From the NCBI GenBank assembly GCA_964036195.1, contig OZ038454.1, forward strand, positions 8,246,001-8,310,000: 64,000 bases of DNA. The letters are read 5' to 3'. The notes under the pieces were generated by a model that ran no database searches, had not been told where the DNA came from, and saw only the letters and a list, made by a program, of their open reading frames with translations. This DNA comes from Sphaerolaimus hirsutus. Its lineage: Eukaryota > Nematoda > Chromadorea > Monhysterida > Sphaerolaimidae. The position numbers and the translations under genes were made by a program. How positions within the stretch are numbered: position 1 is the first letter of the stretch; each line of letters starts with the position of its first letter. Below are positions 3,825 through 32,187 of the stretch, piece after piece.

Positions 3825-4197
3825 AATGTTTTGGTAAACTGGAATAAATTTGAAAATTTACAAATTGAAGAATGGATTTGAAAAACCAACCCCGTTTTTG
3901 CTTTTTTTATTTTTCGACATCATTTCCTTATCATTTCACATCTCAAAAAAAGATATCATGTGAAGTTATAATGAAGGAATAAAAATGTGTAAATTTTTGA
4001 ATAACACTACCGTGTTTTGTGCCTGTTAGAAATAAGATCAAGCTTAGATCAGATGCTATATTAGTTAGCACTCAAAAATGGACTGTGAACGCTGTTTTTC
4101 TGTGATGAACAAAGTGTTTTTTTTTGGGGGGGAGGGGGCTGAAATATTTAACAAGCTGTGTGATCAATCCTGGTTTCGATCAGCCTCGCTGCCCAGG

Positions 4198-4390
4198 TGC
4201 CAGTTCCGCAAATTGAGAATGAGAAGTGAAATGGCAAATGCTATGTGAAATGTGAAATGGCAAGTGAATTGGCAAAATCGAAGTAAAAAAATAAAAAGTA
4301 ATTTCCCTTCGCTTTGGCCAATTTTTTCTCAATTCAATTCTCCTTTCACTTCGCATTTGCCATTTCACTTCTCAATTTGCGGAACTAGCC
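4198..4390. mobile_element. MITE with TGCCAGTTCCGCAA ends
   Basis: A 193-bp hairpin element. The left end TGCCAGTTCCGCAAATTG is mirrored by CAATTTGCGGAACTAG at the right. The next inward motif GAGAAGTGAAATGGCAAA is mirrored too, so almost the whole element folds on itself. It is flanked by the direct repeat CCAGG (4193-4197 and 4391-4395), the same target used by the intron-forming family in Vmat. Related copies: 6792-7004, 10548-10711, 53898-54051. Confidence 0.85.
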
Positions 4391-4629
4391 CCAGGACAAA
4401 CATCAAATTGCAACGACTGTGTAACCATGCACACTCACTAGATCACATTTTTTTCTTGTGAAGAGGGTTGTCGCGGAATTTGTTCTACGCAGTGCAAGAT
4501 TTTTGTCGTTTTGTCATCACAGAAAAACCGTGTGAATGGTGGTTAAAAGGAAATCATGCCATCGTTCATGGCTCACAGTCACAGTGCCCAATTGCCAATG
4601 GCACAACTTGTCAAGGGATAAGAAATATG

Positions 4630-5451: not shown

Positions 5452-8400
5452 TCATTTGCTCTCTTTCCACAAATTAAATGGGTCTGCCTTCGGCTCCAAC
5501 GTGAATCCCGTGTGTTCCTTTTCAGCCGCAAACTGCACCGAGTTTATTGCGCCATATTCGGGTTTTTCCTTGGCTTCAGACGTCTTTTTGGTTGGCGCCA
5601 ATGGTTTGTCGGCCCCGGCGTCCGGATTCTGTTGTTTATAAAGTGCAATGTACGACCGTTTAATAATTGAAAAAATTCCAATTTAAAGGTTCATTTGAAT
5701 AAATTAACATTTTGTCACACTTTCAAAAAATTCGATTGACACCGAAGGTCGCATCCGGTGGCGCACCGGTGCTGGTGCTGGTGCGGTGCGGTGCCATTTT
5801 TCGGGGGGGGGGGGCCCTGCCGGTGCCGGTGCCATTATTTCCAGAATAGCACCGGTGCCGGTGCGGTACCATTTTTCAGCCGGTGCTAAAGGTGCTAGCA
5901 CCAGGGCAAAGTAAAAGGCGCCGGGAAAGGCACCGGCCAAGTCGTAATACGGTGTAAAATTTCATCAACAGCATGTGCTTATTCATATTTATAAGATCAA
6001 TATTCTAGATTCAACTGTTTTACCGTATTTCCTCGAAATACCCCCAGGGGGTTTATGTTTTCAGAGTGGAAATTTTGAGACCAAAAGGTGAAAAATACAA
6101 CAATAACCACCATTTATAAGTTTTTACAGCCTTATATAAGGATGTAGATGTTATAAACGATGTTCTAACGTAACACAGTAATTGTTTTGAACGTCTGTTA
6201 TGCATTTCCCGGACCACAATTACATAGTGCCCATTTTTCGAGGAAATACGGTAGTCAATTTTAGAAAAAACGTCTTGTCAAATTTACTTTGAAATGTTCA
6301 TAATTTGTTGTCAGTGTATGACAAAAGATAGTAACATTTCCTGTACAATATCCACCCCAGACAGTAGACAATAGTGACTACCTGTATATGTATTGGAGCA
6401 GATTAAATATTTGAGCTATCATTTGTCATTATTCTAATTGCTTCATAAAGAGATCGCCACATCATTCTGATCATTTTGAATGCTCAAACATCAAAATCGA
6501 TAGAGAATTCATGGAACAATGCACTTCCGAAGGTGCGTCCTCTAGGAAAATACCCGACATATCCTTCGGAACTTACAGCCCGGTGCGGTGCCTTTCGGTG
6601 CTAGCACCGGCAGCCGGCCGGTGCCCCAGGGCGCCGGTGCTATTTTTTCAGAATGGCACCGGTGCCGGTGCGGTGCCATTTTTTTGCCGGTGCCCTTTTT
6701 TAGGAATGGCACCGGTGCTGGTGCGGGTCGGTGCCATTTTTCCCGGTGCCTTTTCCATCACTATTGACAAGCAGCATCAATTGATGCCAGGGGCCAGTTC
6801 CGCAAATTGCGAAGTGATACGTAAAATGGCACATGCGAAGTGAATTGAGAAGGAAATTGGCAAAAGAGAAGGGAAATTACTTTTTATTTTTTACTTCGCT
6901 TTTGCCAATTTACTCGCCATTTCACTTCGCTTTTGCCAATTTTCTCATCAATTCACGTCGCATTTGCCATTTTTCTCCACATAATTCAATTTTCGGGACT
7001 GGCGCCAGGTCAATTAGAATGTGTAGGCACAATCCTCAAGACCTGGTTACTAAAAAAACACCATCAAAAATGTCGGTGCATTTGTATTTACTTCCAATAA
7101 CACAATTTTCTGAATTTTTAGAAAGAAGTTTGACTTAACGAAACGTTGCAAAGTCCGTACCTGAGCCGCTATCGCCTTTTCTCCTTGTGGTGCTGGGTTT
7201 TTCAAAAAATACATCAGCGGGGCGAAAATAAAATTGATTATCGCTATCAAATACAGCATCCTGAAAAAGTAAGATAAAAAAGTTGTCCTTCGAATATCCA
7301 ATGTGGCTTCACAAACTAGGTCAAAATTTGGGAAACTGCTAAAATCTGGTTCGAATACGTTTGAGTTTATCAAAATTTCTAAATGAATAATTTCCGATCT
7401 CAATAACAGTAAATACCTAGTCGATTCCAGTAAATTAAAATGCGCTAGAAGCAGTTTTATCAGTTCCCGAAATTTCGGCCGTCAACTAAAATATTTCACC
7501 GCAATGCGGCCACGCACACTACCTAGTTTACTACCAGATCTTGGTAAGCTCAAATCGCCTTTGAGCGCATTTCAGTTGACTGAAATGAGTTATTCTTAAT
7601 CCCCATCAACTGCAGTTGACCGACACCTTATTCTGGTAATTTCAAATGCGTTCAAAGCCGATTTATGGGTTTACCGAGATCTGGCAGTAAACTGCGTGCG
7701 CAGCGCTTTTATCTCAAAATTAAACCCTCAAACAACCCACGGGCCGAAATTGATGCTGGACACCAGCGGACCGCCCAAAATCGGTCCGACTGCAAACGCA
7801 AAACAGAACGCCGCATCCGCAATCGCATAAATGGATCCATAGACGCCGACGTGGCGCAGATCGACCAGGGGGCAGTCCCAAACCCTGTAAAATGCCCCGT
7901 AAAGTGTCAAATGTCATGCAAAGTGTCAAAAGTCATGGAAAATGCCCTGCAAAATGGCAACTCGGTTGCCATTTTGCAGGGCATTTTCCATGACTTTTGA
8001 CACTTTGCATGACATTTGACACTTTACAGGGCATTTCACAGGGTCTGGGACTGGCACCAGGTAGCCCATCTGGGGGAACATGCTCGCGTCGATCATGCCG
8101 ATGGCGAAGCCCATGCACCCGTTGGGGATTATCAGACCGCCCACCGAGGTGGCCGATGGGATCTGGGTTGGGGGTAGTGATGTGAAAGCGCCATGGCGCT
8201 GGCGCCTGGCGCTAGCGCCAAAGCAAAAAGCGCCATGGCGCTTTTGGCGCTTGGCGCTAAAATGCTGTGGCGCCATTGGCGCTTGGCGCCGTCTTTCCGA
8301 AAAGCGTCATGGCGCTTTTGGCGCTTGGCGCTACTTTCCAGTGGCGCCATTGGCGCTCGGCGCTACCATTTTTTTAAGCGCCAAAAAAGCGCCAAGTGAT

Positions 8401-11400
8401 AATTGCGCCGCGATGATCGACGCAGCTCGTTGTATGCACATATTGCATGCACTAAAACACAATATTTGTGTGAAAAGGATGTTTCTTGAACACATCATGG
8501 CAGATTCACCGAAGCTATCAAATGAGAATCAATTAAAACATTCCCAATGCAGCGTTATATGTGAATACCAGAGTTGTTAAAAGTACCAAACTTTTTCCAA
8601 AGTATGTGTAGGGGTAAAGTATTTTGTTTTACTCACCCCTGAGTACAGAAAGCGTAAAGTAATTTTTTACTTTTACTTGCGAGTAAATGAGAGTAAAATA
8701 CTTTTTTTCCCAGAAAGCGTAAATGCGAGTATTTTTTCTCAAGAAAGCGTAAAAGCGAGTAAAATTAACTTTTTGTTGCTGGAACATGTAGAAGGGAGCA
8801 TTGTGAATGTTTAATGTGAACAACATAAGGTGTTTTCTTTCAATTAGTAAGTATTCTTTATAAAAAAAGTGGTCTCGAATGACAAAAGTGCTCTTTCAGG
8901 GGGCAGTCCCAAGCCCTGTAAAGTGTAAAGTAAAGTGTCAAATGTAAAGTCAAATGGAAAGTAAAGTGTCAATCAAAACAAAAAAGAAAAGATTTTATTA
9001 CTGAACGTTGCATGACAATTGACAGTTTACTTTGCATTTGACTTTACAATTGACACTTTACTTTGCGTTTGACTTTACATTTGACACTTTACTTTACACT
9101 TTACAGGGCTTGGGACTCCCACCTGTACTCGTAAAAATTACTCTACAGTACTCGAGTACTCTCAGAAAGTAAGCATACAGGCGAGTACAGATACTTTTTT
9201 CAAAGTATGCATATGCGTTTTTATTCGGTTCTCGAGTATGCGTACTTTTTGAGTAAAAGTAAATACGCATTGACAACTGTGGTGAAATCTCTTACATGCA
9301 CTTACATTTTTGTGTTTTGACAGGCAACACAAGTTATCGAAATTGAAGAAGAGGGTACTGTGTGTCTCACCTGTACCATTAAAAGCAAAATTATTTTGGC
9401 GCTGGCGCCATTGGCGCTTGGCGCCATGGGCTTCTGGCGCCTTTGGCGCTTGGCGCTAAGGCTTGGGAAAGCGTCATGGCGCTTTTGGCGCTTGGCGCCA
9501 ATTTGCTGTGGCGCCTTTGGCGCTTGGCGCTAAGGCTTGGGAAAGCGTCATGGCGCTTTTGGCGCTTGGCGCCAATTTGCTGTGGCGCCTTTGGCGCTTG
9601 GCGCTAAGATTTGAAAAGCGCCATGGCGCTTTTGGCGCTTGGCGCCAAAAGTCTGGCGCTTTTCACATCACTAGTTGGGGGACTGGTAGAATTGCTTTGC
9701 ACTAGTTGACAGCCATACTAAATGTCAACTGGTTCCCATCCCAATTGAAAGCTTGCTGACGGTAATTAAAGCGAAGAGTGCAATCAGGTCTCTCACAACT
9801 TCCGTATTTCTCCTAATAGAAGAGCGACGTTCTATTTTTGTCGTCAACATTTTTTATTGTCGTTCTATTGAAGATGCCGTTCTATTGGAGGTATGCCGTT
9901 CTATTGGAATAAATACGGTAATAATTTGAAGGTGCCAAGGGGCTCCGCTCCATGGTGCTATGGGTGCTTCTGTGACGCCATTAGCATGTGGCGCGCTGTT
10001 TTCGGATGGCACCATTGGCGCTTGGCGCCCTTTTTTCTGGTGCTTTTCCATCACTACTCACAACATCACCTATCACTATCACCAAAACATTTCTTATAAC
10101 CTACACTTTGCTGGTTACTTTAAAGGTGCTCAACTGAATCCCCTCACCCCCCCCCCCCCCAAAAAAAAAATCCCCAAACTGCAACAACAACCCACCACCA
10201 AAAGCGCCAGCCCAATGATCAACAGTCCAATCAACGAGCACAGCCACCTTCCGATCTTATGCGCCAGCCTCCCAAACAAGTTGGTGCCGATCATGTAGGC
10301 GATGCTGGCGGGCAGGAAGGCGGCGCCCCTCTCGGCGGACGACGCGTGCATGGTGTCCATCATGTGGATGGGCAGGGTGGGCTCGAGCATGGCGATGCCC
10401 GTGTTGCCGATCGTGATCGCGCCTGCGGGGGGGGGGCGGCAATTTGGGGGGTGGGGGTTCCAATTTCCCGTGAACTACCTAGACAATTTCTAGTGCGGAT
10501 TTTTTCGCTTTTATTGAAGTTTTAATGTGAAACTGAAGGCGACCCGGTGCCAGTTCCGCAATATGAGAAGTGAGAAGTGAAATGGCAAAGGCGAGGAGAA
10601 ATTACTTTTTCTTTTTCTTTTTTTACTTCGCTTTTGCCAATTCACTTGCCGTTTCGCTTCGCCTTTGCGCTTTTACTTCGTATTTGCCATTTCACTTCTC
10701 ATTTTGCGAAACTGGCCCCCTAACAGATTGTCACAATTTGCCATGCACTAGAAAATTTCCAGTGCATATTTTTTAAGCTTTTATTGAAGTGCACGGTACT
10801 TTTTGCGGTGGAACTTTGCACTAGAAAGATGCACTCCATGCACTTAAAGTGTAACAAACCGGCAGCAACGATGATGTAGGGGTCCCTGGCGAGCACTTTG
10901 ATCTGCGTGCCCTCCGGCTCGCCGCGGTCGATGTGCGGCTGCAGCACCAGAAACTGCAGAACTGCGACACGGAAGCGAACAATATTGCGCTCAAATGCGT
11001 GCAAATCTCGATTTTTGACTTGATACAAGTAGTGATGTGAGAGTCCCCAGCCCTGTAAAATGTAAAGTCCAATGTCCAATTGTAGTATTTGATTGAATTA
11101 CTACAATTCAATCAAATACTACACATGTCAATCAAAACAAATATTTTATCAAATGTCAATCAAAACAAATATTTTATCAAATGTCAATCAAAACAAAAAA
11201 TGAAAGTTTTTTCAGTGAAATTTTGACACTTTGCATGACATTTGACACTTTTCTTTACACTTTACAGGGCTCGGGACTGGCACCTAGGCAAAAACACCAG
11301 TGAGCTTATGGCTCGTGGTACCACCTTGCTGTAGTGCTATTGACTCTTGCAACAAGCCAATCAGGTAAAAGTACCATGGTGCTTTTAGTGCTTTATTGCA

Positions 11401-14400
11401 ATATTTATAAAGTGTTACGTAAAACCAAAAGCCGATACTGGCACTCTTGTACAATTGCACCAAAGTCCCCATACTTTTGCATCACAAGTCGATACCATTG
11501 TCACCTCCATCAAAACCCCCTCAACAAACCTCCATCGAACAGCGCCAACAAAGCGAGCAACAAAAAGGGCAACTCCTTGCCCGACCACTCATACAGCAGC
11601 CCCCCATACACGGGCCCGACAAGCACCCCTAGGGCAAGTCCCCCAAGGGCGATGCCCATGGCCCAGCCCCTCTCCTCGTCGTCGGGGTAGGCCTGTGGGC
11701 ACTCCCAGACCCTATAAAAAGCCCTGCAAAATGTCAAATGTCATGCAAAGTGTCAAAAGTCATGTAAAATGCCCTGCAAAATGGCAACTCGGTTGCCATT
11801 TTGCAGGGCATTTTCCATGACTTTTGAAACTTTGTATGACATTTGACATTTTGCAGAGCTTTTTACAGGGTCTGGGATTGGCACCTGGGCGAGCATGCCC
11901 ATGCCGCTGGTGCTGGTGCACGCGGAGCCGATGCCCTGCAGGGCCCGGGCTATCCACAGGATGAAGTAGGACGAGCCGAACGCGAATACTGCGGGGGGGC
12001 GTTATTTGGGTGTGCAGGTTAAGGGTGGTTTTTTGTGATGGGTTGTTTTGGAGGCCTGGTTTGGGTGCGACTGCGGCTAAATTGTTTTGTGGAAAATTGT
12101 GACGTGATAAACATTTGTCGCGAAAATTGTGGTTAACGTAAAATTATTGTCCTTCAACCGACAACTTCAACCTAGGTATACTTATATTAATGTTCAACCT
12201 AATAACAGCTAAAAATATCGTAAAACGTGAAAATTCAAAGAAAAATAATATCAATTTTAGTTCAGGTCGTTTCATGCAATCGCAGCTCTATCTGTTGAAG
12301 TGTTTGGTTTACTATCATCTCAACGTGTCCGATAAAAAATCCCATATCTTCATTCAGTTTTTGCAACAAAATTTAAAAAAAAACTGACATATCGTAGAGA
12401 AGAACATGATGACAAAGCCAGTAAACATGGGCACCGTGTAGCCGATCCTGAAATTGTACATCGTCTGTGAACTGTGAGATTTAGCATGTACAGATGAACA
12501 GATAACAAAGATGACAATTTTGGCTAATATTGTATTTAGTGGAAAGAAAAGGAGAACGCCGTCCATTCAAAAACTTCGCCGTCCTCTGATAAACTCCAAA
12601 AACAAATCCTGGCGAAGACATTACTCTCCCAGTGGACTTATTCAAGTATCACATGGAAACAAATCGCCAAAACTTTTCGCGCCATGACCCAATCACACTA
12701 TCACCAAACACACCGATTAGTAAGCGGTCCAACAAACGGATTGGCTATCAACTGCACGAGCGCCTTGGAACCGAACATGAGCCCCACAAAGATATTCTCG
12801 GTGTTCATGAGCCTGTGCCGGTGCTTCTGCATCTGCGTGCTGTTCATGTTGGCCAGCTGCGCCGCCGTCAACTTGTACGGGTCGTTCACGTCCAGTGGGC
12901 GCAACTGCAATGGACGTTTGCCATTTTGCAGGGCATTTTACATGACTTTTGACACTGCATTACATTTGACATTTTACATAGCATTTTACATGATTTTTTA
13001 TATTTTGCATGACATTTGCCATTTTTAAAGGCATTTTACATGACTTTTGACACGTTGCATGCTATCTTACATTTTACAGGGCATTTTACATGACTTTTGA
13101 CACGTTGCATGACATTTGCCATTTTCCAGGTAATTTTACATGACTTTTGACACTTTGCATGGCACTTGTCATTTTGCACGGCCTTTCACATGACCTTTGA
13201 CACTCCGCATGACACTTGACACTTAACAGTTTATTTACAGGGCCCGTCATCAACACCTGGGGCGGCAGGTAGGTAGTAGTGCTCTCGGCAGACCCCTCGA
13301 TGCTGTAGTCATAGGTGGGCGGAGCTTCGGGGTCGAGCGCGTCTGCGGGGAAATAGTCGGCGCCCGAGCGGCCGCGCGCCGCCCGTCGCTGGCGCCTGGA
13401 AATGTTTCTTGTTGTGGATTGGAGGTTACCGTATCCCTAGAATAATTCCCCCCGTAACAGATTTGATCAATTTGTTGTAGCCAATTTTTACAAAAATGAG
13501 TCGTTATTGTGTTAATAAAGCACATTTCGTGAAATGAGTTGATACTATTAGGTACGGGCCAGATTTAATACTCCCTACAGATTTGTAGGGTAGGGCGTAC
13601 GCCCGACAGATTTTTTAAAGTTTAGCCGCATCGACGCACATGCACCCAGAGCAAGGCGGTTCGTAAAATATACGAAACCATCCTTTAAGGTTGCCGATAT
13701 TGCAATATGACGTATATCACTTCGATTTTGGCTCGGAAATCACGATTTCGTCATTTCTTGACCGTCTGCCACTTCGTTTTTTATTTTATTTTGTCGGGCG
13801 GGTTACTCGCATAGGTCACGCTTTTGTGTAGTCAGGTGGTCACTTTTTTAGTGTTCACTGTCTGCAACCGAAACCATGAGGGCAGCGACAAGAAAGAAAT
13901 GCATGCACGAGCGTACAAAAGCGCGACTTATGCGAGTAACCCGCCCGACAAAATAAAATAAAAAACGAATTGGCAGACGGTCAAGAAATGACGAAATCGT
14001 GATTTCCGAGCCAAAATCGAAGCGATATACATTATATTGCAATATCGGCGACCTTAAGGGATAGTTTCGTGTATTTTACAAACCGCATTGCTCTCGGTGC
14101 ATGTGCGTCGATGCGGCTGAACTTTAAAAAATCTATCGGGCGTACGCCCTACCCTACAAATCTGTAGGGAGTATTAAATCTGGCCCCGGGCTTGAAAATT
14201 TTAACGAAATAATAATTCCTCCCCTTGAATAACTCATCCTCGAACAGTCCCCCCTCGAAAACGTCTGACGAAATAATAATTACCCAGGGGGATTATACAA
14301 GCGAATACGCTATTTTGCTCTCGATATTTTACAGCTTGTTAATCAAACCTCGTGACTTTTGCTAGCGGGTGCAAGAATGACGGCATAGTGGGCATCATTG

Positions 14401-15334
14401 TGGGGTTTACGCTGAAATTGGGAGTCCGGTGCCCCTGCGATTGGATTTATTTAAGTGGTGCGATCAATGTGAGATAAATACACAACATCCAATAAACCTA
14501 TACCGTATTTACTCGAATAATTCATCCTTGAAAAATCTCTCCCCCCCCCCCCCCCCGCTGACGGCGATGAATATGAAATTTAGGCGTATGATAAATTGGT
14601 TGTGTCCAATTTGAACAAAAAATGGCTTGTTATTTTGTTAATAAAGAATACATTGTGAAATGAATTGATACAAACATGCCTTAAAGTTTTGACGAAATAT
14701 AAATCCACCAGGGGAATTATTCGAGAACATACGGCATTATATATAATACAAAGCATTTCGGTTAACAAACATTGTTCCATCGAATCCTCTGCACCCCCAT
14801 GTGCCGTCTGCCACGGCCAACTTCCTCCTCTAACTCGACTTTGGGCACCACAATTTTCTCGTTGTCCAGCATATGCCGCGATAAATTGGGATACCAACTG
14901 CGGAACAGGTATTCCGGAACTATTGGCACTGCGAGGGTTGAGAGTGTTGTTTATTGACAATCGACTTGAATTGAATATCATAAAGTCGGTAAATTTTTTG
15001 TTAAAATGAAGATATTTACAGTATCGGAAAAAGAAAGTTTTTGAGTAAAACAGACTGGAAATATTTAAAATAGGTAGACACAACAGGGATGAAATTAAAA
15101 TAGTTATCCGCGTGAAATACCCGCCCGTACAGGCAAATAGATACACATCTTCCAAACGGAAAATCTGTATGTATCTGCAATCGAATCTTTCGCAACTCCC
15201 TGAACAAAACCCCCGGTTCACTGACCCACGGTGGTGAGCAGCATGTTGTCCAAAAACAGCGCCACGTACACGATGAACAAAAGCACCACGCGCGATTTGC
15301 GCCACGACAAGATTTTATTTTTCAAATCCAGCAT
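5452..15334 (-). CDS. Vesicular monoamine transporter (SLC18 family)
   Basis: The product is a 12-helix major-facilitator H+/monoamine antiporter that loads dopamine, serotonin, octopamine or histamine into synaptic vesicles. Exons in coding order: 15226-15334 (ATG at 15334), about 14830-14928 (its 3' end is not resolved), 13257-13395, 12714-12904, 12389-12447, 11885-11988, 11530-11692, 10860-10961, 10196-10422, 8058-8162, 7741-7865, 7161-7260, 5452-5628 (TGA). All junctions but the one after exon 2 keep phase. Diagnostic pieces are helix 1 ([18 protein letters not shown]), [18 protein letters not shown], the DDEERG loop and [40 protein letters not shown] and [20 protein letters not shown]. 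The luminal loop between helices 1 and 2 is long, as in the family. The cytoplasmic tail (5452-5628) is divergent. Three introns are transposon-derived (11693-11884, 12905-13256, 7866-8057); the last has a TG 3' end, so intactness depends on unusual splicing. VMAT is favoured over the acetylcholine transporter from helix 1. Confidence 0.92.
5740..6767. repeat. GCACCGGTGC-rich hAT-like element with insertion
   Basis: Two blocks of GCACCGGTGCCGGTGC-type short repeats (5745-5940 and 6575-6765) are separated by unrelated DNA that includes a C-tract element (about 6023-6253). The right end finishes CCTTTTCCATCACTA, matching the end of the GCGCCA-rich family at 8175-9673. ATTGACA occurs at both outer edges and may be the remnant of an 8-bp target duplication. 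It lies just upstream, in the gene sense, of the last Vmat exon. Confidence 0.5.
6023..6253. repeat. C-tract inverted-repeat element, nested
   Basis: Ends TACCGTATTTCCTCGAAATA and its complement TTTTTCGAGGAAATACGGTA bound about 230 bp. It sits between the two GCACCGGTGC blocks, so it probably inserted into that element. Confidence 0.7.
6792..7004. mobile_element. MITE, GCCAGTTCCGCAA family, in Vmat intron
   Basis: A 213-bp hairpin flanked by the exact direct repeat CCAGG (6787-6791 and 7005-7009). Inverted motifs TTGCCA/TGGCAAA recur through both arms. It lies in the last Vmat intron, where it does not affect splice sites. Confidence 0.8.
7505..7702. repeat. Short inverted-repeat element in Vmat intron
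   Basis: The arm at 7511-7555 (AGTTTACTACCAGATCTTGG, then AAGCTCAAATCG) is mirrored at 7655-7702 (CGATTTATGGGTTTACC, then GATCTGGCAGTAAACT). It lies in the Vmat intron 7261-7740 close to the next exon. A related half-copy with TCAACTACAGTTGA lies near 56955-57055. Confidence 0.55.
7866..8057 (-). mobile_element. Introner-type MITE forming a GT...TG Vmat intron
   Basis: A 192-bp hairpin sits exactly between coding positions that must join: upstream exon ends ...ATGGGCTACCTG and downstream exon begins GTCGATCTGCGC, giving the conserved GYLVDLRH. On the coding strand it starts GTGCCAGTCCCAGACCC and ends GGGTTTGGGACTGCCCCCTG. The arms carry inverted copies of GACACTTTGCATGACATTTG and a palindromic centre with GGCAAC/GTTGCC. 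The target duplication is CCTGG on the coding strand (8057-8061 and 7865-7869), so the 3' end is TG, not AG. Canonical AGs inside (for example TTTTACAG before GGTTTGGGAC) would shift the frame with the natural donor. It has the same length and ends as the intron 11693-11884. Confidence 0.85.
8569..9281. mobile_element. hAT-like MITE with CAGAGTTGTTAAAAGTAC end
   Basis: Left end CAGAGTTGTTAAAAGTACC, right end TGACAACTGTG. It is flanked by GTGAATAC and GTGAAATC (6 of 8 matching). The interior is repeats of GAGTAAAA and AAAGCGTAAA. Sister copies at 20467-21102, 26382-26873 and 27905-28668 have exact 8-bp duplications, which supports the call. A further element (8899-9121) is nested inside. Confidence 0.75.
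8899..9121. mobile_element. GGCAGTCCC-family MITE nested in hAT element
   Basis: Ends GGGCAGTCCCAAGCCCTGTA and TACAGGGCTTGGGACTCCCA bound a hairpin whose arms repeat GTCAAATGTAAAGTCAAATG-like motifs. This is the longer subtype, also seen at 34405-34625, of the family that forms Vmat introns. No clean target duplication is visible here. Confidence 0.7.
9803..9922. repeat. TACCGTATTTCTTC-type element (GTTCTATTGGAGG family)
   Basis: Left end CCGTATTTCTCCTAATAGAA and right end TATTGGAATAAATACGGTAA enclose copies of GCCGTTCTATTGGAGG. This second family shares only the outermost TACCGTATTTC with the C-tract family. Other copies: 27343-27797, 28677-28812, 29108-29520, 55005-55110, 57555-57892. Confidence 0.55.
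9937..10060. repeat. Fragment of GCGCCA-type hAT-like element
   Basis: GGCACCATTGGCGCTTGGCG motifs end with TGCTTTTCCATCACTACT, matching the right end of the element at 8175-9673. No left end or duplication is seen, so it is a fragment in a Vmat intron. Confidence 0.45.
10548..10711. mobile_element. MITE, TGCCAGTTCCGCAA family, in Vmat intron
   Basis: Hairpin with ends TGCCAGTTCCGCAATATGAG and CTCATTTTGCGAAACTGGCC and inner TTTGCCA repeats. The flanks (CCCGG on the left, CCCTA on the right) no longer match, so it is probably older than 4198-4390. Confidence 0.65.
11053..11283. mobile_element. GGCAGTCCC-family MITE inside a Vmat intron
   Basis: The right end GGGCTCGGGACTGGCACC is typical; the left end is altered (GAGAGTCCCCAGCCCTG). 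Inside there is a separate 20-bp hairpin (ATTTGATTGAATTACTACAA with its complement) and three copies of TGTCAATCAAAACAAATAT-like sequence. It lies wholly within intron 10962-11529. Confidence 0.65.
11693..11884 (-). mobile_element. Introner: MITE that is a complete GT-AG Vmat intron
   Basis: The intron between ...GGCATGCTCGCCCAG and GCCTACCCCGACGAC is nothing but one 192-bp element of the TGCCAGTCCC family. On the coding strand it opens GTGCCAATCCCAGACCCTG and closes GGGTCTGGGAGTGCCCACAG. The target duplication is CCAGG (11884-11888) against ACAGG (11692-11696). The duplicated G joins the element's first T to make the donor GT, and the duplicated CAG makes the acceptor. The joined protein reads [16 protein letters not shown], the conserved region after helix 4. 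Length equals that of the copy at 7866-8057. Confidence 0.9.
12905..13256 (-). mobile_element. Aged introner forming a 352-bp Vmat intron
   Basis: The intron between ...CTGCCGCCCCAG and TTGCGCCCACTGGAC consists of family sequence from end to end. It opens GTGTTGATGACGGGCCCTG, a decayed terminus, then carries about five tandem units of roughly 60 bp built on CATGACTTTTGACACTTTGC, and closes GGCAAACGTCCATTGCAG. The right terminal repeat is gone, so the acceptor derives from a new CAG. Splicing is canonical GT-AG and phase 0. Confidence 0.75.
13428..14313. repeat. C-tract element split by a palindrome, Vmat intron
   Basis: Left end TACCGTATCCCTAGAATAAT, right end GATTATACAAGCGAATACGC. Its core (TTGTTAATAAAGCACATTTC, then GAAATGAGTTGATA) matches copies near 14634 and 52300, showing that this is one element interrupted by the 13556-14186 foldback. 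Confidence 0.6.
13556..14186. mobile_element. Foldback element with about 260-bp arms
   Basis: The left arm starts GGGCCAGATTTAATACTCCC and the right arm ends GGGAGTATTAAATCTGGCCC. The arms match through motifs such as GTAGGGCGTACGCCCG, GATTTCCGAGCCAAAATCGA and CGGGTTACTCGCATA, with a loop near 13820-13920. No open frame resembles a transposase. It lies in the Vmat intron after exon 2. Confidence 0.8.
14501..14738. repeat. C-tract inverted-repeat element in Vmat intron
   Basis: Left end TACCGTATTTACTCGAATAA, right end GAATTATTCGAGAACATACG. It has a 16-base C run at 14541-14556 and the same core as 13428-14313. It ends just outside the region where Vmat exon 2 must finish. Confidence 0.6.
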
Positions 15335-17619: not shown

Positions 17620-19122
17620 GTATGTGGTACAGCGAAAATGCCGAAAAATGGCATCTTGCATTGAGTCGCCATGCCCCCCCCCCCCATAGATCTGGATGTG
17701 GATGTTACGCCTATATACCCCCAAGTTTCGCTTTAAACCCCACCCACAGCCATAGACGATGCACCTACAACTGGAAAATTTTTGGATGCCGGACTCGATC
17801 GGGAAGATTTTTACAATAAATACCATACCAACCGACTCAGCATGAAATGAACAGATAAGCACCAAGAAAACAAAAACTTGCGGATTTCAAAAAAAATTGT
17901 AAATGTGAGAAATGAGCAATAATCAATTCGTCGGCAAGTTGAAACTGTAACGAGCAAATATGTAATCATCGGAATTGAAACTATCAACGGCGCTGAACGT
18001 CATACACGAAACGGTAAAGTAAATTACATTTTCAGAACGAAAACGAAATATTTGGAAATTTATTACATTAGTATAAGAAGTAATTGAACATTGTGTGCGC
18101 AATGAACTTGTTCTGATAAACCTGTAGATCAACTTGGCTGCTTGATAAACCTTTGTTTAGTGCGAGTGCAACAGATGATAATGGAAATATACCTAATTCG
18201 CGATACGATTCCGTTAGGTGAGCACTTTATTATACGCCTCATTAGAATTTATGGATGCGTTAAACACTGCAGACTTTTCTGCAGTGACCATCGGCAGCTT
18301 ACATAATGGGTGATATTGTTCGGCGTAGGCTCGCTTGGCATCTAACCCGCTTGGCATGTAGACCAGTTACGGGGGTCGCATGGGGAGGGGGACTGCTCAG
18401 CTAGCTATCGATCCCGACGTTACTATCCCCTGAGCCCCACCCCCAAATATCTCAACTATCTACTATCTAAGTGGGGCTAACTTCGATCGATTTTTCCCCA
18501 ACCTTCACCCAAAATCACTGAATTTTGCTCCATTTTGTCAATTTCGCCATATTTATATAGTATACATTTTGCCCCAGCGAGCCCACAGAATAATTTTCAG
18601 CTATCTATCCTTCCGGAGGGATATTTGCTATCCATGATGCCGCCACAAGGGTCAAAACGTTGTCTACATGCCGAACGGGTTACATGCCAAGCGACACAGG
18701 CCCGTATTGTTCTAACCGCAGACCGGAGGCGTAGATTTGTTTTCACGAATGTATTTTCATGCGCACATCGATTACACCCTCAAAGCAACGGTCAGTAATC
18801 AATCAAATCCAAAATGTTATCATGGTAAAAAATGGCTGGTCGGCGCCTAGACGCGGAAACATATTTACCTACCTATTTGTTATAATTGGTCGCCATTGAA
18901 ATCTGAGAAACAGCGGACAAATGCTAGGAAAAATCGCATTTCACAATTCACACCCACACACCCCAGTAAATCTTTGCGGGCGCGCCGTAGACGATAAAGC
19001 TCAAACGGACCTATCAAATTCAGGCGCGGAGCTTGCGCAAACTGATTGAAGAAATAAAGGGGAGGACATAGGTGACACTTGAGCGCCGTGAAAATGGCGC
19101 CGCAGTTGCGAATGGTGCCAGG
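17620..19122. other. Spacer, no gene recognised
   Basis: Unique-looking AT-rich DNA apart from a short hairpin with CTGCAGACTTTTCTGCAG (18270-18290) and a C/T-rich strip at 18420-18460. Untranslated exons of Vmat could lie here or anywhere up to the hAT-like elements; I cannot identify them. Confidence 0.4.
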
Positions 19123-19290
19123 TGCCAGTCCCAGACCCTGTAAAATGTCAAATGTCATGTAAAGTGTCAAAAGTCATGGAAAATGCCCTGCAAAAAGGCA
19201 ACCGAAATGCCATTTTGCAAGGCTTTTTACGTGACTTATGACAATATGCATGACATTTTACAGGGCATTTTACAGAGTCTGGGATTGGCA
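19123..19290. mobile_element. TGCCAGTCCC-family MITE, intergenic, clean target repeat
   Basis: A 168-bp hairpin with ends TGCCAGTCCCAGACCCTGTA and GGGTCTGGGATTGGCA. The exact flanking duplication CCAGG (19118-19122 and 19291-19295) defines the family's target and shows where the element proper begins and ends. It would form a GT-AG intron if transcribed on the plus strand. Confidence 0.9.
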
Positions 19291-19787
19291 CCAGGTGGAG
19301 GGAAACGTATTTGAAAAAGTAATCACTACTTTTAATTGTGTTATACAAAAATTGAAACGAAATGACATGCCGGGCAAATGAAGTTGTAATGGAATGCGAA
19401 TGGCGTTTGAACATTGGCGCCATTCCGTTGCCGATGCCCCGCGCAAGCTCATGGGAAATTTTATTTACGCATTTGTTTTGCGTAAATTCACACAGGTATT
19501 TTAATCCTGTGACTAAACCATCTTAAGGTTGTTTTCTGGCTTTTTGACGTCCTCTCTCCCTGACAATACAAGGTTTAATTGCACAGGGTAAACCGATATG
19601 CATGCGCGTTTGCGAAAAGCCTAAGCGTTAAAACAAGAAACCAATGCCAGAAAACAAGAAACTGGGCATTTATCTACCTACTTATCCTGTCAAATGCAAA
19701 CGGCTTCTCATTCGCTTTGGTTCAATTTACTGTCGAAGAAATACCTCATTTTAGATAGGAGTCTTGTACTTGTTTGATGCAATGTGG

Positions 19788-21102: not shown

Positions 21103-21525
21103 CCTATAGGATGAAACAACATTAAGTATGTTCGGTATGTACACTCAAAATGTACCTTCCTATTCAAAATCAATGTCCAATCGCACTACCAGATAACAGC
21201 CAGGGAGTGTGTAGATGAGCTGTGAAAATTACTGAACTTTTTTCAAGTACCTATATGTCTTTTTACTCACCTGTGAGTACAGCAAATGCAATATACTTTT
21301 TTTGCCTGTAACTATAGCAAATGCAATATACTTTTTTGCCTGTAACTATTAGTATTTACATGTGATCAAATTTCTTTTTTCCAGGTAAATGTAAGGTCAA
21401 GTATATTTTAATCAATCTTTTTATCAATTGTAAAAGTGGGCACTTTTTCATTGGCAATTTTAAAGCATGTGTACTTTTTACATGTGTACTTGTATATAAA
21501 AATTTTGTTTTTTTTCTCTATTAAG

Positions 21526-22057
21526 CCGGAATTAGAGCTCAGCGTCGATTCGACGTGAAATGACGACGTGAAATGACGTCGTGAAATTAATTACACGAGT
21601 GTGGATCATGCTACGGGTCTACAATTTTCTAAGGATAATATATGAATCAATACCTTAATCGTGTCCAATACTGAGTGTTATCAGCCACAAGTAGAGCGAA
21701 TTGAAAAATTCAATTTTTATCATTCCACATCATCATCATTTCACGTCACAGTGTCAGGGAACAACCTGACATTTCACGTCAGACTGCTGCTTGCAAAAGT
21801 CTGACGTGAAGTGTCAAGTTGTTCCCTGACACTGTGACGTGAAATGATGATGACGTGAAATGATAAAAATTGAATTTTTCAATTCGCTCTAGTTGTGGCT
21901 GATAACACTCAGTATTGGACACGATTAAGGTATTGATTCATATATTATCCTTAGAAAATTGTAGACCCGTAGCATGATCCACACTCGTGTAATTAATTTC
22001 ACGACGTCATTTCACGTCATCATTTCACGTCGAATCGACGCTGAGCTCTAATTCCCG
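21526..22057. mobile_element. Near-perfect palindrome (foldback), arms about 250 bp
   Basis: The left arm starts GGAATTAGAGCTCAGCGTCG and the right arm ends CGACGCTGAGCTCTAATTCC. The arms match with only a handful of differences all the way to a short loop (about TGCTGCTTGCAAAA) near 21790. The motif GACGTGAAATGA recurs as a short direct repeat. It has no coding capacity. Confidence 0.85.
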
Positions 22058-22495
22058 CTTTATATAATATTTCTAAAGGAAAATGCTATGATTTCTTCAG
22101 GGTTTCTTTTTTAGCAACAAAATTTGCAACAACAAGAGATAGACTTTCTTACATTACAGTGGAGCTTTGTTCATCAACAAAATCCAGTTACATAAACCAT
22201 TGCCTATGGGTATTTCAACACTGCTGAATTAATTGGCCATTTTATCATCACTTTCCCTACTCATTTCCACTTCTATCATTTCAGCAGCAATTTTGATCTG
22301 GCTATGATGTTTTACCTTTAAAAGCATTTCTCCACATTTTTCATATTCAATCCAACCACTTCTGTGAATAAATAGCAGTGTGGTCACTTTTTATGTCCCA
22401 CATTGAAATGTCTGAAATACCTTTTTTGTACACGAGTACTTTTCAAGAGCACATGTACAGGCAAGTATAGGTACTTCAGAAAAAAGTATACCGTA

Positions 22496-23555
22496 TTACC
22501 TCGAATTATCCCACCCTCCTTGAATTAACCCCCCCTTGAATTAACCCCCCCCCCCCTTGAATTAACCCCCCCTCGAATTAACCCCCCTCAAAATGGGCTG
22601 GAGAAATAATAAACCCCCCTCGAAATACCCCCCTCCGGAATGATGTACATCATGTATGCAATGCACATGATGTATTTATTACTAAAGTCGGCAGACGTAT
22701 CGCCCTACAAACATTTGCGTCAATCTCTCCAGTGGAGAGTGCATGACGGCATTAGGAATTGTGACGCAATATTTTAACGATTGGAATAGATCGGGTCACG
22801 TATGAAAACTTGGCCCTTATCCCAGTTACCAGTTGCGTATCATACAAATGAGAGTGAAAACTGAAAGTTAGCTAAAAATCGTTAAAATTTGCTTCGCTTT
22901 GCCAATTTCCACCTTCATAATCGCTATTTTTGTTTAGATACATGGTTATATACCTAGCTAACGTGAGCCTATTTTATTCATATTAATAGCGGATTTCGGA
23001 ATTTTGGCCGGCTGCCAGGTTCTCTTCTGTTGGAACGGAGCCAATGAATGAAAAATAAAATAAAAACAAAAACGGTAGTTTGAACGGTCAAATTCTTTAC
23101 TAGCAACGTCGAAAATGTAGATAACTAGGGCGTGGCACGCACGGACGCAGCGAAACGTCCATTTTTCTTTTAATATGATTTTCTTTTTCAATTTCTAGCG
23201 TCTGCGTGGGACACAAGTTTCGTTGTTCGCTCTATTCACGGGCGAATTCTAACTCTCCGATTTTGTAGGCTGAATTTATTTATTTCCGACTTTTACTTAT
23301 TTGCATCGCAGCTACTCTTATACGCTCATTTGTGTAGAAATCTAGATGTACATCTATAGCCCCAATATAACCTATATTCTAACATTTATTACCGTTTTTG
23401 TGTAAGAAAAAGCGTATTCTTTACTATGAATTTCATGAAAATTTCTGGCGAAATAATAAAACCCTCCTCGAATAAACCCCCCTCGAATTAACCCCCCTCA
23501 AATTTTGCTGGCCAAAAAATAAACCCACATTGGGGTATTTCGAGGTAATACGGTA
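22496..23555. repeat. Long C-tract inverted-repeat element
   Basis: Left end TACCGTATTACCTCGAATTA, right end TATTTCGAGGTAATACGGTA, with CCCCCCTTGAATTAA and CCCCCTCGAATTAACC units. The interior (TGATGTACATCATGTATGCA, GCAGCTACTCTTATACGCTC) is shared with 31618-32047. At about 1.06 kb it is the largest copy of the family here, and no open frame fits a transposase. Confidence 0.65.
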
Positions 23556-23628
23556 TGTAAAAGTATTTACCCAGTACTCGAGTATACATACTTTTTAAGT
23601 AATAGTAATACATTTTAACAACTGTGGT

Positions 23629-25157
23629 CTAAAGGGTACTGTCAGTGGGGTCTGCGGGGCACAGCCAATGGTAAATCTACCGCGCGCGGTGCACCGCTGG
23701 ACACCATAAGCACTTCCTTTGTCTAATAGCATCGTGGGGGCTCGCTTGTATTTAATGAGTTGTTCAGAACATGGCGAGAACATTTAAATAGCTTGGGTGG
23801 GTGGTTGAAATGGCGCCATTAAATTCAATTTGATTTTGAACGCTCTCATTCGATGCAATGGCACCGCGCTGACAAGAACAAAAGTAGTCAGTGGAATTGT
23901 AAGTCAAGTGACAGGAAAACCGATGCATTTACAAAGTTCCTTTCACACGATTCATCATTTCATCGCTTTCCACTTTTTTGACGCGTGTCAACTTGGATGA
24001 ATTATTTAATACCGTAGCGATGTGAATGTTTGAATCCCGTCACATGAAACATTAGTAAAGTCGTGTAAAACCGGGACGTGTTGAAAGCTTCAAAAAAATC
24101 GATTGGCGCCAGCGCCATGGCGCCATTCCATCGCAACTTGAGGCCAAAGGATTTATCGTGTGATAATGACACCACATGCTGTATTGTGTAATTATTTACC
24201 CACGCATTTACTTGCATTCACCGGCCATTTGGCATCCATCTTCATTCAAACCAAATATTCGACAAGAATGAATAAATTTCTGGAACGAACCTCGCCGAGT
24301 GGACAATTTTCAATTAAGCGGCTCTATAAGCTTGGAAAAACGAGTGTGTTGGAAATTAACAGAAGATTACGTATTCTCAAATTTCCATTTCCCTGGAATG
24401 TACCTAGGTTAATGGTTCGCAAATACCGACAACAAAAAAACCCATCACGCACTACACACAGTGTTTCCCTGAAATACCCCCCCAGAGGGTTTATTATTTC
24501 ACCGGCAAGTTCTGAGGGGTTAATTCGAGGGCGGTTCTTATTGAGACAGAAATTTTCGTGATGGATCGTAGTAAAGAGTAGGTTTTTACATACGCAAAAC
24601 TGGTAATAAATGTGACCGAATAGAATACGTTTGAACATATCTTCACGACGCACCTATAAATAGCTACACAAACTACCTTATCTACGCTTAGTTTAGATGC
24701 AAATTGGCAGCAATTAATACATCATGTAAATTGCATCATTCCAGGGGGTATTTCGAGGGGGGTAAATTCAAACGAGGGGTGATTCGAGGAAATACGGTAG
24801 GTACAACATTCATTCATAACCAGCCGAAATACCCAAATACCCAGTAGTATGTACACCCTTCCCTTCCACAATAAACTGCACCGCACCGCCCATTGAGCCA
24901 TCAAAGCGCACTTACGCCGCTACCCAATTCGCAGATCGGCTATAGGTTACAAAAGTGCGCAGCGCCGGTGCGGGCAGTCGACGGGGCAAATTAACCTGTC
25001 ACCGGCTTCCGTTGCCCGCTAGCGAGCGCGCGCGTGCTTCTGACGGATTTTATCAAGTTCAGCTGTGTTCTACTGTGCAACTTGGCTGTTACTGGGTATA
25101 TCTATGCTCTATAAAGTGAATATACATAAATATATCCAGGTACCAGGAGCCGCGCAG
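23629..25157. other. Spacer with a C-tract element, no gene recognised
   Basis: A C-tract copy runs from about 24455 (CCCTGAAATACCCCCCCAGA) to 24800 (GGTGATTCGAGGAAATACGG). A GC-rich strip at 24905-25040 has no recognisable exon. A short GGCGCCAGCGCCATGGCGCC patch at 24105-24124 is a fragment of the GCGCCA family. Confidence 0.45.
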
Positions 25158-25816
25158 TGTGACGTAATTGAGGCATCCAATTCTGAAAGTCGACAAGTCC
25201 AAAATATGAAAATTTCGAGTTAGGCCCGGAAACGTCATCTGGGGCTTCGTCCGTACATTTTTCATCATTTTCCATAAATTTTTTGACCTCGCATACCCAT
25301 ATGGCATAGTGCCAAATTTGACATTTTTGGGGAAAAATGCAAAAAATTTGGGCAAGAAGTTGACAAGTCGACTTAGTTTTGGGCTGAAAGTCGACAAGTC
25401 CATCCTCCGCATCCTTTTTAATGGGAAAAAACGCAAGAAATGTGATAAGTCCACTGTGGAAACCGATTTCTAAAAGGCGACAAGTCCATAAATTTCCCAT
25501 AATGCAACCTCGGCTACCCCGGGAACAAAAATGTTCTCGAGTGCAAGTAGTCGACAAGTCCATTTCCCTCCCCGAAGCAGTTTTGCTCTGACCGAATGGA
25601 ATTTTATGGACACCCCATATTTCACATATAGGTTGAGATTAGGGGCTGAAAATTTGACACTTTATTGTCAACATATGGAACTTAATGTAAAGCATGAGAG
25701 AGCCAAATTGGACACGCACCACGGGCCTGGAATTGGGTCTAAAACTTAAAATGCGATTTACTCAAAATCGCATTTTGTGGACTTGTCAACTTTTAGAATT
25801 AGACGCCTCAATTATA
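25158..25816. repeat. Inverted-repeat element with GTCGACAAGTCCA motif
   Basis: Left end AATTGAGGCATCCAATTCTG then GTCGACAAGTCCA; right end TGGACTTGTCAACTTTTAGA then GACGCCTCAATTATA. Inside the left two thirds, the motif (GTCGACAAGTCC or near variants) recurs at least five more times at irregular spacing. The minus-strand open frame it creates is a repeat artefact. Confidence 0.6.
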
Positions 25817-25829
25817 TACAATCGTAGAA

Positions 25830-26035
25830 CATTATAATATATAATTGGACAGCAAGTGGACAAGTAATGAGTAAAAAGTCAAGTAAAACGACAAATAAAG
25901 TGAAGAGCAAAGTTTAATGTAAAGTTAAAAATCAAGAGCAAGGTCAAGAGTAAAATTGACACTATAAGCTACAAGTACTTTTACAAGAGTCAAGGGTAAA
26001 GTACTTGTACACTTGCGGAACTGGCCCTTGGCGAC
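25830..26035. repeat. Half-copy of a GGAACTGGCC-ended element
   Basis: AAGTCAAGTAAAACGAC-type strings end in GTACACTTGCGGAACTGGCC, the terminus of the TGCCAGTTCCGCAA family. No left terminus is found. Confidence 0.35.
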
Positions 26036-26381
26036 ACCATTAAAATACAGTTATACCTACACCTCTTGCAACATAATTTTTTACTTACGTTAATCTGATC
26101 ACTGCATGCCGAACTAGTGCTTGGAAGCGTCGTCCAAAAGTGTCAAGTAAAGTCGGAGTGTAACGGTGTTAGAAACGTAAAAAAATGAATTATTCCGTGA
26201 AATGAAAAAAAACGAATAACAGTTAAACCCTTGTAACAGTTCAGTTATCCATCGATCAACTGTGAACGACTTTAGCTACACTCGTAGCCGCAGTTAAAAC
26301 CGAGCACCAGCGTCACACATCCAATCCAAGCCGATCACTTTCAAATACCTTTCCATTCACCACCGCCACGCCAATGCCGCA

Positions 26382-26873
26382 GAGTTGTTAAAAGTACTGA
26401 ACTTTTTCGAAGTATACGTAAACGTAAAGTATTTATTTTTTACTCACCCCCTGAGTACAGAAAACGTAAAGTAATTTTTTTTACTTTTACTCATGAGTAA
26501 ACATGAGTAAAATACTTTTCTCCCCAGAAAACGTAAAAGTGAGTATTTTTAGGAGTTTTGCCCATATTTTCACTCATATTCACAAATTTTTGTACATTTT
26601 GGATCATTTAACCTTCAAATTCACTAGTTCATGCGTTATTTGCCTATTTTGGAAAAAATCCCATCCAGTTTTTCTCCCTTTTGTTCCTTCTACGCCTTGA
26701 AAAAGCCTAGAACAAAGCCTAAAGTAACTACGTTTTCTGTACTCGATTATTTTCAAAAAGTATGCGTAAAAGCGAGTACAGGTACTTTTTTTCAAAGTAT
26801 ACGTAAACGTTTTTACTCAGTACTCGAGTATACGTGCATTTTGAGTAAACGTAAATACGTTTTAACAACTATG
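26382..26873. mobile_element. hAT-like MITE, exact 8-bp duplication
   Basis: A 492-bp element, ends CAGAGTTGTTAAAAGTACTG and CGTTTTAACAACTATG, flanked by CAATGCCG at 26374-26381 and 26874-26881. It inserted beside a GC-rich patch (26875-27050). It is the cleanest copy of its family. Confidence 0.9.
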
Positions 26874-27342
26874 CAATGCCGCCGCGCGGTTCCGGCCGCT
26901 GCGCGCATTATGACGTGGTTCCTGCCGCCGCTGCACTAAATGTTACGCAGCGCTGCGCAGCGCGGCTGAAAGTAGTGCGATGCCGCTGCGGCGCACTAAA
27001 TACCGGGCGCGGCTGGCGCATGACAATGCGGCGAGGTAGCGACGATTCACTACGCTAATCACTGCATACCTGGGCTGGGGTTGGCTAGCTGAACTTGTAC
27101 TATGTACCATGTAAATACTAAGAAGGCGTGTACCTTTTTATTTTACATGTACCATATTTCTTTTATAGAAAAGCGCCGTTCTATTTTTCACTTTTAAGAT
27201 GTTTTTAACTCGCCGTTCTATTGGAGGTTGGCGTTATATTGGAGGTGCCGTTTTATTGGAGGTTTCCTTTCTATTTTTCACCAATTTTTTTACACACGTT
27301 TGATTTGAATTCAGTTAAATTGTAAATCAAGCTTGAACAATA
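26874..27342. other. GC-rich patch and repeat fragments
   Basis: 26875-27050 is rich in GCGCAGCG and GCCGCCGC words, without a convincing exon. From about 27168 to 27270, fragments of the GTTCTATTGGAGG family follow. Confidence 0.35.
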
Positions 27343-27797
27343 ATACCGTATTTCTTCTAATAGAAGAGCGCCGTTCTATTTTTTTCGTCAACTTTTTTAC
27401 CTGCCGTTCTATTAGAGGTGGCGTTCTATTGGAGGCTGCCGTTCTATTTTTTTCACCAATATTTTTCAGATATTTTTCATTTGAACATAGTCTTTTTTAT
27501 CAAAAATGAACAACATTTTACTGTCGGAGCACCACCTCGAACAAAACCAAATGTGAAAATAACACTAAATCATAGTTCTGAACAGCTTGGATGTTTTCAC
27601 CACCCATTTTTCTTATATTTGGGTGTTCTGGCACTCGTCCAACTTAATATCTACCTGCCATTATATAGGAGGTGCCGTTCTATTGGAGGCTGCCGTTCTA
27701 TTTATTTCGTGAGTGCAGAAAAGTGCCAAAACCTGCCGTTCTATTGGAGGTGCCGTTCTATTGGAGGTATGCCGTTCTATTAGTAGAAATACGGTAT
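27343..27797. repeat. GTTCTATTGGAGG-family inverted-repeat element
   Basis: Left end TACCGTATTTCTTCTAATAG, right end TATTAGTAGAAATACGGTA. Copies of GCCGTTCTATTGGAGGTGCC cluster near both ends around an AT-rich core. Confidence 0.65.
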
Positions 27798-27904
27798 CAG
27801 GGCATATTTGAAAAAAAAGATATATTTGAACGCTTTGACCGTTCTCACAATCCATTTATTATATTTTTGTGAATTGTCACTCTTCCAACGTAATCTGTAT
27901 CTAC

Positions 27905-28668: not shown

Positions 28669-28676
28669 GTATCTAC

Positions 28677-28812
28677 CGTTCTATTCGGAACTGCCGTTCA
28701 ATTGGAGGCTGCGGTTTTACTGTTATCGTCAGCGCGAAAATGTGTCAAAAACTGCCGTCCTATTGACATAGTATTGGAGGTACCTATGGCGTTCTTTTAG
28801 AAGAAATACGGT
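28677..28812. repeat. Right half of an interrupted GTTCTATTGGAGG element
   Basis: CGTTCTATTCGGAACTGCCG-type units end in TTAGAAGAAATACGGTA. The left half lies before 27897. Confidence 0.5.
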
Positions 28813-31514: not shown

Positions 31515-31617
31515 GTAGGTACATATGTATACTCGGCGGACATCATACTTAGTATGGAAACTTACCTTAACCCATCTGAATAATGAACAAAAAAAATTTA
31601 CAGTTTTTTCATCATAA

Positions 31618-32047: not shown

Positions 32048-32187
32048 TTTCGTTTTTACTATGGAATAATTAATAACGAAATTTACACAAGATTTTATTC
32101 ATCAAGTTTGGTAGGATTCTGCACATATTTTGCGGTCCGCCGAGTGTATGCATTTTATTAACTGGATCCTAACATTGTACACCACTC

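Follow-up and report, generated by a model that had tools for sequence, protein, structure and literature searches.

Introduction

Intron birth and the strictness with which a 3′ AG is required in animals are long-standing questions. In introners derived from DNA transposons, one splice site is carried by the element and the other comes from the target duplication (Gozashti et al. 2022, PMC9860276). Hairpin introns of Amoebophrya, which have non GT-AG borders, inverted repeats of 8–20 nucleotides (nt) and direct repeats of 3–5 nt, resemble miniature inverted-repeat transposable elements (MITEs) (Farhat et al. 2021, PMC7789003), and a MITE origin has been suggested for the non-canonical introns of euglenids and diplonemids, which have short direct repeats and pairing between their ends (RNA 2025, PMC12621601); according to the same article, such introns are rare outside unicellular eukaryotes, except in Fritillaria. 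Here we analyzed a stretch of 64,000 nt from the nematode Sphaerolaimus hirsutus (contig OZ038454.1, positions 8,246,001 to 8,310,000), hereafter the window, in which a MITE (element A) lies within the coding sequence of the gene Vmat/cat-1 and may represent a new intron that starts with GT and ends with TG.

The larvacean Fritillaria borealis is an animal that removes many non-AG introns with a U2-type spliceosome (Soo et al. 2026, PMC13326754). In human U2 introns with a GT donor, TG acceptors were reported solely where an AG within 28 nt can be used instead (Szafranski et al. 2007, PMC2374985), and SOS splicing has been reviewed as an RTCB reaction that acts on transposons in animal mRNA (2026 review, PMC13247085). 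In the Meloidogyne graminicola genome, 5.34% of the splice sites in predicted genes are non-canonical, as compared to 3–4% in other nematodes, which tempers a claim of full novelty. In a search limited to open-access literature and only narrowly aimed at intron gain in nematodes, no description of nematode GT-TG introns derived from MITEs was found.

Results

Element A interrupts a conserved stretch of Vmat

All gene models were stitched by hand from this one window, with GT-AG as the default for introns other than the two GT-TG cases. The Vmat features that concern element A are the following:

7161 to 15334, minus strand: Vmat/cat-1 gene with 12 exons, hand-stitched to 525 amino acids; the model lacks the C-terminal end
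8058 to 8162, minus strand: Vmat exon 10, ending in MGYL (model and homologues)
8058 to 8062, minus strand: 5′ CCTGG copy at the end of exon 10, with its partner copy at 7869–7865
7866 to 8057, minus strand: Vmat intron 10 (element A), composed of a 189-nt MITE (8057–7869) and the 3′ CTG copy (7868–7866); GT-TG
7741 to 7865, minus strand: Vmat exon 11 (model and homologues)

Element A interrupts a Vmat/cat-1 exon at GYL|VDLRH, which confirms the initial observation, and the original prediction of a 192-bp element between CCTGG copies on the coding strand was borne out; the CCTGG flanks are exact on either side, and the element is a near-perfect palindrome with arms (7864–7961 and 7965–8062) that are 94% complementary and separated by a 3-nt loop. 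The element measures 189 nt, or 192 nt if the second CTG is included. With a GT-TG cut, the coding strand (8063–7860) reads TAC CTG|GTGCCAGTCCC...GGGACTGCCCCCTG|GTC GAT; with the duplicated CTG set apart from the element, it reads TAC CTG, GTGCCAGTCCC...GGGACTGCCCC, CTG GTC GAT. The predicted RNA fold has an energy of −174.8 kcal/mol, as compared to a mean of −56.8 (standard deviation 4.7) for shuffled sequences (z = −25.2; none of 200 shuffles equaled it). The stem comprises about 89 pairs, of which only three are non-Watson–Crick, every one of them G·U. Two internal AGs, those at −19 and −81, are paired in this fold. The three G·U arm differences were considered as a trace of selection on the RNA; this was rejected because they are too few. 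Element A was the most symmetrical copy among those inspected. Its retention in the Vmat frame leads to stops, and the Vmat coding sequence outside the element is open throughout the model.

Exact removal of element A restores MGYLVDLRH, in which CTG GTC matches the conserved L-V. Among the aligned homologues (best 120 of 1989 matches), none presented an insertion at the junction and one presented an indel within 6 residues of it, while residues P, G, V, D, and R near the junction were 100% identical; Xenopus VMAT2, for which a structure has been solved, was gapless across the junction in the single alignment displayed. The duplication and one chance base together create seven equivalent registers for exact removal (CC-CC, CT-CC, TG-CC, GG-CT, GT-TG, TG-GG, and GC-GT), and among these GT-TG alone has GT at its start. 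This corrects the earlier claim that exact removal restores GYLVDLRH only with a TG 3′ splice site.

It had also been proposed that the internal AGs do not restore the frame with the natural donor; this is correct for the AGs at −19, −95, −128, and −137, which shift the frame, but the AG at −81 is in phase and instead runs onto a TGA. Where a single in-frame alternative of about 17 residues had been proposed, we identified seven in-frame, stop-free options, all of which use TTTTACAG at −19; four have GT donors (−1, +18, +21, and +25 residues) and three have GC donors (+7, +33, and +42 residues), with the alternative originally quoted adding 18 residues. Each of the seven replaces or lengthens a conserved stretch, and their GT donors score −3.6 to 0.5, as compared to a minimum of 2.7 among 32 other donors.

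A second candidate GT-TG intron in P5CS

A second candidate intron with this geometry was identified in P5CS, a gene modelled with 13 introns and stitched to 748 amino acids:

47758 to 47935, plus strand: P5CS exon 2, ending in AAASGMP(G) (model and homologues)
47936 to 48347, plus strand: P5CS intron 2, an inverted-repeat element of a family unrelated to A, with CTGG on both sides, GT-TG borders and a nested GCGCC hairpin
48348 to 48403, plus strand: P5CS exon 3, starting with (G) (model and homologues)

The intron starts at CTG|GTGGAG and ends at TCGCTG|G, between the CTGG copies, and its ends are inverted repeats (81% over 27 nt); no further copies of these ends were found in the window. 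Its predicted fold pairs both ends (z = −7.9; none of 100 shuffles equaled it), which is partly due to the nested GCGCC hairpin. The junction is located within a conserved motif, and none of 120 homologues (best 120 of 1992 matches) showed an insertion there or an indel within 6 residues. No AG is present at the acceptor between −81 and +10; the nearest AG is the one at exon position +10, the use of which costs conserved residues. Three GT-AG options exist, all at the AG at −81, including one that uses the natural donor and adds 27 residues; as an acceptor this AG scores −6.7, as compared to a minimum of −1.4 among 32 others. When 81-nt stretches were drawn at random from the window, approximately 32% were free of stops in any one frame, and an open 81-nt frame in P5CS is therefore unsurprising either way. 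The P5CS element is older-looking than element A, being decayed and having taken a nested insertion. The nested copy belongs to a family of GCGCCAAGCGCC hairpin elements found at 8186–9679 and 48089–48223.

Terminal repeats and splice site scores across 35 introns

Borders were compared for 35 modelled introns of three genes (Vmat, P5CS, and a DHX15-like helicase modelled with 11 introns); 33 were GT-AG and two, Vmat intron 10 and P5CS intron 2, were GT-TG. Two further Vmat introns were found to contain sequence of the repeat family of element A:

11693 to 11884, minus strand: Vmat intron 6 (element B), of A's family and orientation, with a CAGG duplication; GT-AG; hairpin of −148.6 kcal/mol (z = −20.9)
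12905 to 13256, minus strand: Vmat intron 3, of A's repeat family; GT-AG; 50-nt internal repeats; terminal inverted repeat z = −0.8

Terminal inverted repeats that reach the intron ends were present in three of the 35 introns, i.e., Vmat intron 6 (z = 29.5), Vmat intron 10 (z = 30.7), and P5CS intron 2 (z = 16.3), and both GT-TG introns are among these three (Fisher p = 0.005); Vmat intron 2 presented a weaker, internal inverted repeat (z = 5.2). A G at position +5 was absent in the same three introns and present in 28 of the 32 others (p = 0.005). The donors of element A (−0.2) and element B (1.4) score under all 32 others (minimum 2.7), while that of P5CS intron 2 (4.8) is inside their range. 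As for acceptors, element A (−1.8) scores under all 32 (minimum −1.4), and element B (0.4) and P5CS intron 2 (0.5) each score above three of the 32. All three elements are oriented such that GT comes first on the coding strand, which would not be the case for the flipped forms. Elements A and B place one repeat family at exact intron borders, the sequence pattern expected of introners. Vmat intron 3 has kept a B-like left end, with a right arm that is not clear by eye, and is possibly a matured element intron.

The elements are possibly Harbinger-like MITEs with a CCWGG target

PIF/Harbinger elements create a 3-bp duplication of either TWA or CWG, and a 3-bp CWG duplication is what we found here. 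Among 13 related elements inspected by eye, seven (A, B, C, E, F, H, and I) have a matching CWG on both sides, as does the P5CS element; five (D, E2, G, J, and K) have no matching CWG pair and one (L) is truncated. When inverted repeats were scanned for 4-mers duplicated at their flanks, CWGG/CCWG words were found in 12 of 775 pairs, as compared to 67 of 125,573 for the 252 other words (approximately 29-fold); the 12 matches comprise seven distinct elements, some of them matched twice, and one match that bridges two elements, and the P5CS element was also recovered. Further copies and relatives include the following, with no strand assigned:

19118 to 19295, strand not given: element C, of A's family, outside modelled genes, between CCAGG copies
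34400 to 34630, strand not given: element E, a related MITE with flanks CCAGG and CCAGC
4193 to 4395, strand not given: sister-family MITE with ends GTGCCAGTTCC and GGGGCTAGTTCC, between CCAGG copies
6787 to 7003, strand not given: sister-family MITE with ends GGGCCAGTTCC and GCGCCAGTCCC, between CCAGG copies
53893 to 54056, strand not given: sister-family MITE in P5CS intron 12, between CCAGG copies

The three sister-family MITEs, none of which lies in an exon of the modelled genes, have GGCCAGTTCC-like ends and exact CCAGG flanks; their GGCCAGT end may resemble the ends of mPing. The duplications suggest that the MITEs are Harbinger-like, with CCWGG as the target and CWG as the duplicated part. 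No Harbinger transposase was recognized by eye within the window, and exact element-end patterns had no matches in the collections viral_contigs and genome_contigs, which are viral and prokaryotic and therefore little informative here.

Because CWG is duplicated inside CCWGG, the element supplies the GT while the target supplies CAG or CTG by chance. Insertion into CCAGG, the target of element B, yields CAG|GT...CAG|G, and insertion into CCTGG yields CTG|GT...CTG|G, as found for element A and P5CS intron 2. Conservation of the protein indicates T as the variable base at both of the latter sites before insertion. Two other origins of the TG, mutation from AG after insertion and an error in sequencing, were rejected, given that CTG is present in both copies of each duplication and fits the conserved protein. 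Two other readings of the element ends were also rejected, i.e., CCWGG as part of the terminal repeats with no duplication (without one copy, the conserved residues at Vmat elements A and B and in P5CS are not restored) and a hAT-like cut with ends CAGGG (the two ends mismatch under such a cut). Three further copies (8901–9120, 50821–50971, and 51178–51330) have flanks that are alike when read inward (CAG/CAG or CTG/CTG), as though one arm had been copied over the other past the element end.

Host affinity and other repeats in the window

The 25 best matches of the Vmat protein were 60–64% identical to it and 24 of them were named nematodes, with nematode cat-1 first (best 120 of 1989 matches); the P5CS protein matched nematode P5CS at no more than 66% identity (best 120 of 1992). 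Among the Vmat and P5CS matches listed, there was no near-identical protein of the host species, transcript-derived or other. In small trees of 26 and 20 proteins taken from the Vmat and P5CS matches, the window proteins fell outside the rhabditid, spirurid, and tylench nematodes that were sampled (support of 0.992 for Vmat and 1.000 for P5CS); support for the order relative to Romanomermis was 0.207 and relative to Trichinella 0.934.

Several other repeats were observed. Identical 300-nt direct repeats (34722–35021 and 45904–46203) flank an open frame of 3243 codons (36091–45822), an arrangement that by eye resembles a long terminal repeat retroelement. Long inverted repeats at 21519–22064 and 13556–14186 have 272-nt arms that are 96% and 94% complementary and 2 and 87 nt apart, respectively. 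A further repeat family consists of many copies of a CCCCCCTCGAATTAACCCCCC-like motif, some with a TTTCGAGGAAATACGGTA-like end, located at 22488–33359 and elsewhere. Intron 11 of P5CS contains a sequence (52840–52935) that is tRNA-like by eye (GGTTCGATTCC) and may be a tRNA-derived repeat.

Discussion

The anatomy of the elements, the duplication, the hairpin, the conserved protein over the junctions, the lack of a good AG, and the recurrence of the pattern are features of the sequence itself; from these we infer that the elements are removed from RNA, that this removal is exact, and what machinery performs it. The explanation that we favor, tentatively and at somewhat less than an even chance, is that element A is a Harbinger-like MITE in cat-1 that is excised exactly from the pre-mRNA as a new GT-TG intron, assisted by its hairpin and independent of an AG. 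The MITE would have entered a CCTGG target within the coding part of cat-1, with its first bases providing the GT donor and the duplicated target providing C(A/T)G|G; the hairpin of about 89 bp would then hold the exon ends together and bury the internal AGs, possibly offsetting the poor donor and the absent AG, such that a spliceosome, presumably of the U2 type, could join the ends despite a weak donor and a TG acceptor. Insertions into CCAGG, such as element B, would become GT-AG introns and those into CCTGG, such as element A and P5CS intron 2, GT-TG introns, with both kinds persisting. The GT-first orientation of all three elements points weakly to the spliceosome, as its chance is 1 in 8. 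A broader proposal, which we consider unlikely, is that shape-guided excision of hairpin MITEs is constitutive in this nematode lineage and indifferent to AG or TG, such that nearly every CWG-targeting MITE that lands in an exon in the right orientation is born as an intron; the SOS system may in this way have become a route by which introns arise, and older elements, perhaps including Vmat intron 3, would acquire an AG over time.

Several observations weigh against excision of element A as a hairpin-assisted GT-TG intron. The analysis covered genomic DNA, and the sample is small, comprising three introns from a single window with hand-made models. Human TG acceptors have been reported solely as alternatives to an AG within 28 nt, and ordinary TG use of this type leaves P5CS intron 2 unexplained. 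The donors of elements A and B, which score under all 32 others, could also mean removal without the spliceosome; P5CS intron 2 has a GT-AG option with its own donor (+27 residues) plus two more GT-AG options; and element A, the arms of which differ at three stem pairs, may be young.

Removal could instead be independent of the spliceosome, with an endonuclease cutting a hairpin that is recognized from its shape and RTCB ligating the exons, in the manner of SOS splicing, an explanation that we regard as rather unlikely. SOS splicing, the subject of Zhao et al. (Nature, 2026), is reportedly active in C. elegans. Its trigger is reportedly a hairpin of inverted repeats; since the host is a nematode, the earlier comparison with transposons in nematode mRNA becomes more apt. 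Such a route would be indifferent to A or T in CWG, and it is consistent with the predicted pairing of the ends in both GT-TG introns, with the low donor scores of elements A and B, and with the absence of a +5 G in both of these and in P5CS intron 2; SOS splicing has also been described in metazoans (PMC13247085). The GT found at the 5′ end of all three elements, which flipped forms would lack, speaks against it, although weakly at 1 in 8. Of the three candidates raised without preference in the original prediction, a broken allele has lost ground; the other two, relaxed acceptor choice and guidance by the hairpin, are both still viable and could operate jointly. It is improbable that element A is a null or rare polymorphic insertion that stays in a broken cat-1 allele; as the most symmetrical copy inspected it may be recent, its retention meets stops, and the argument for removal draws on genomic DNA, but the remaining modelled Vmat coding sequence is open, and the same pattern recurs in P5CS, with an unrelated, older-looking element that is decayed and carries a nested insertion, at a site with conserved flanks and with no variation in length among the 120 homologues listed.

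Ordinary GT-AG splicing at cryptic AGs, with residues added or replaced, is quite improbable; the seven in-frame open options in element A and the three in P5CS intron 2, one of which uses the natural donor, would allow it, but the P5CS acceptor (−6.7) falls far under the minimum of the 32 others, the GT donors of the Vmat options are all below the minimum for other donors, and the affected stretches keep their length in 119 of the 120 Vmat homologues and in all 120 P5CS homologues among the matches listed. We consider somatic removal of the element at the DNA level, or an assembly error, very improbable. A transposase can restore its site and long palindromes can mislead assemblers, but the decayed P5CS element with its nested element is unlikely to be mobilized, and CTG is present in both copies of two separate duplications and fits the frame.

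If hairpin-assisted excision of GT-TG introns is correct, a nematode can remove introns that violate the near-universal AG rule and, like the larvaceans, is an animal in which transposons gave rise to non-AG introns, and these introns would represent natural substrates for telling spliceosomal from RTCB-dependent removal. The CCWGG target provides a natural experiment, in that closely related elements become GT-AG or GT-TG through one chance base; should splicing be as good for TG copies as for AG ones, the intron would be defined by the hairpin and not by the AG.

The elements can be compared with each of the systems introduced above, as far as the available portions of those sources describe them. 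Like introners (PMC9860276), they are MITE-like, with terminal inverted repeats and target duplications, and appear to become introns; unlike introners, for which AG or duplication-derived sites are described, they include a single family divided between AG and TG by one target base. Both element A and P5CS intron 2 have the direct repeats at the borders, paired ends, and non GT-AG borders of hairpin non-canonical introns, which does not imply a common origin. In Amoebophrya (PMC7789003), non-canonical introns make up more than 60% of the total and their borders are highly diverse, whereas here GT-AG borders occur in 33 of 35 modelled introns, the hairpin greatly exceeds theirs in length, and the 5′ GT is kept. 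The euglenids and diplonemids (PMC12621601) are protists in which pairing was tested over the terminal 9 nt and introns often have no U1-like donor. While Fritillaria (PMC13326754) removes many non-AG introns, the deviation here is limited to introns with inverted repeats, and the non-canonical sites of plant-parasitic nematodes are predicted ones, described with no link to transposons. The human type of TG acceptor does not fit either, as the 80 nt upstream of the P5CS intron 2 acceptor contain no AG and the AG at −19 in Vmat element A is out of frame. The predicted folds present what an SOS substrate would require, i.e., an inverted-repeat transposon with pairable ends in a transcribed gene, but SOS splicing is described as a defense against transposons, while the elements reported here resemble settled introns with a 5′ GT. 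By this comparison, the elements appear akin in function to the hairpin introns of euglenids, diplonemids, and Amoebophrya, and akin in build to transposon-type introners.
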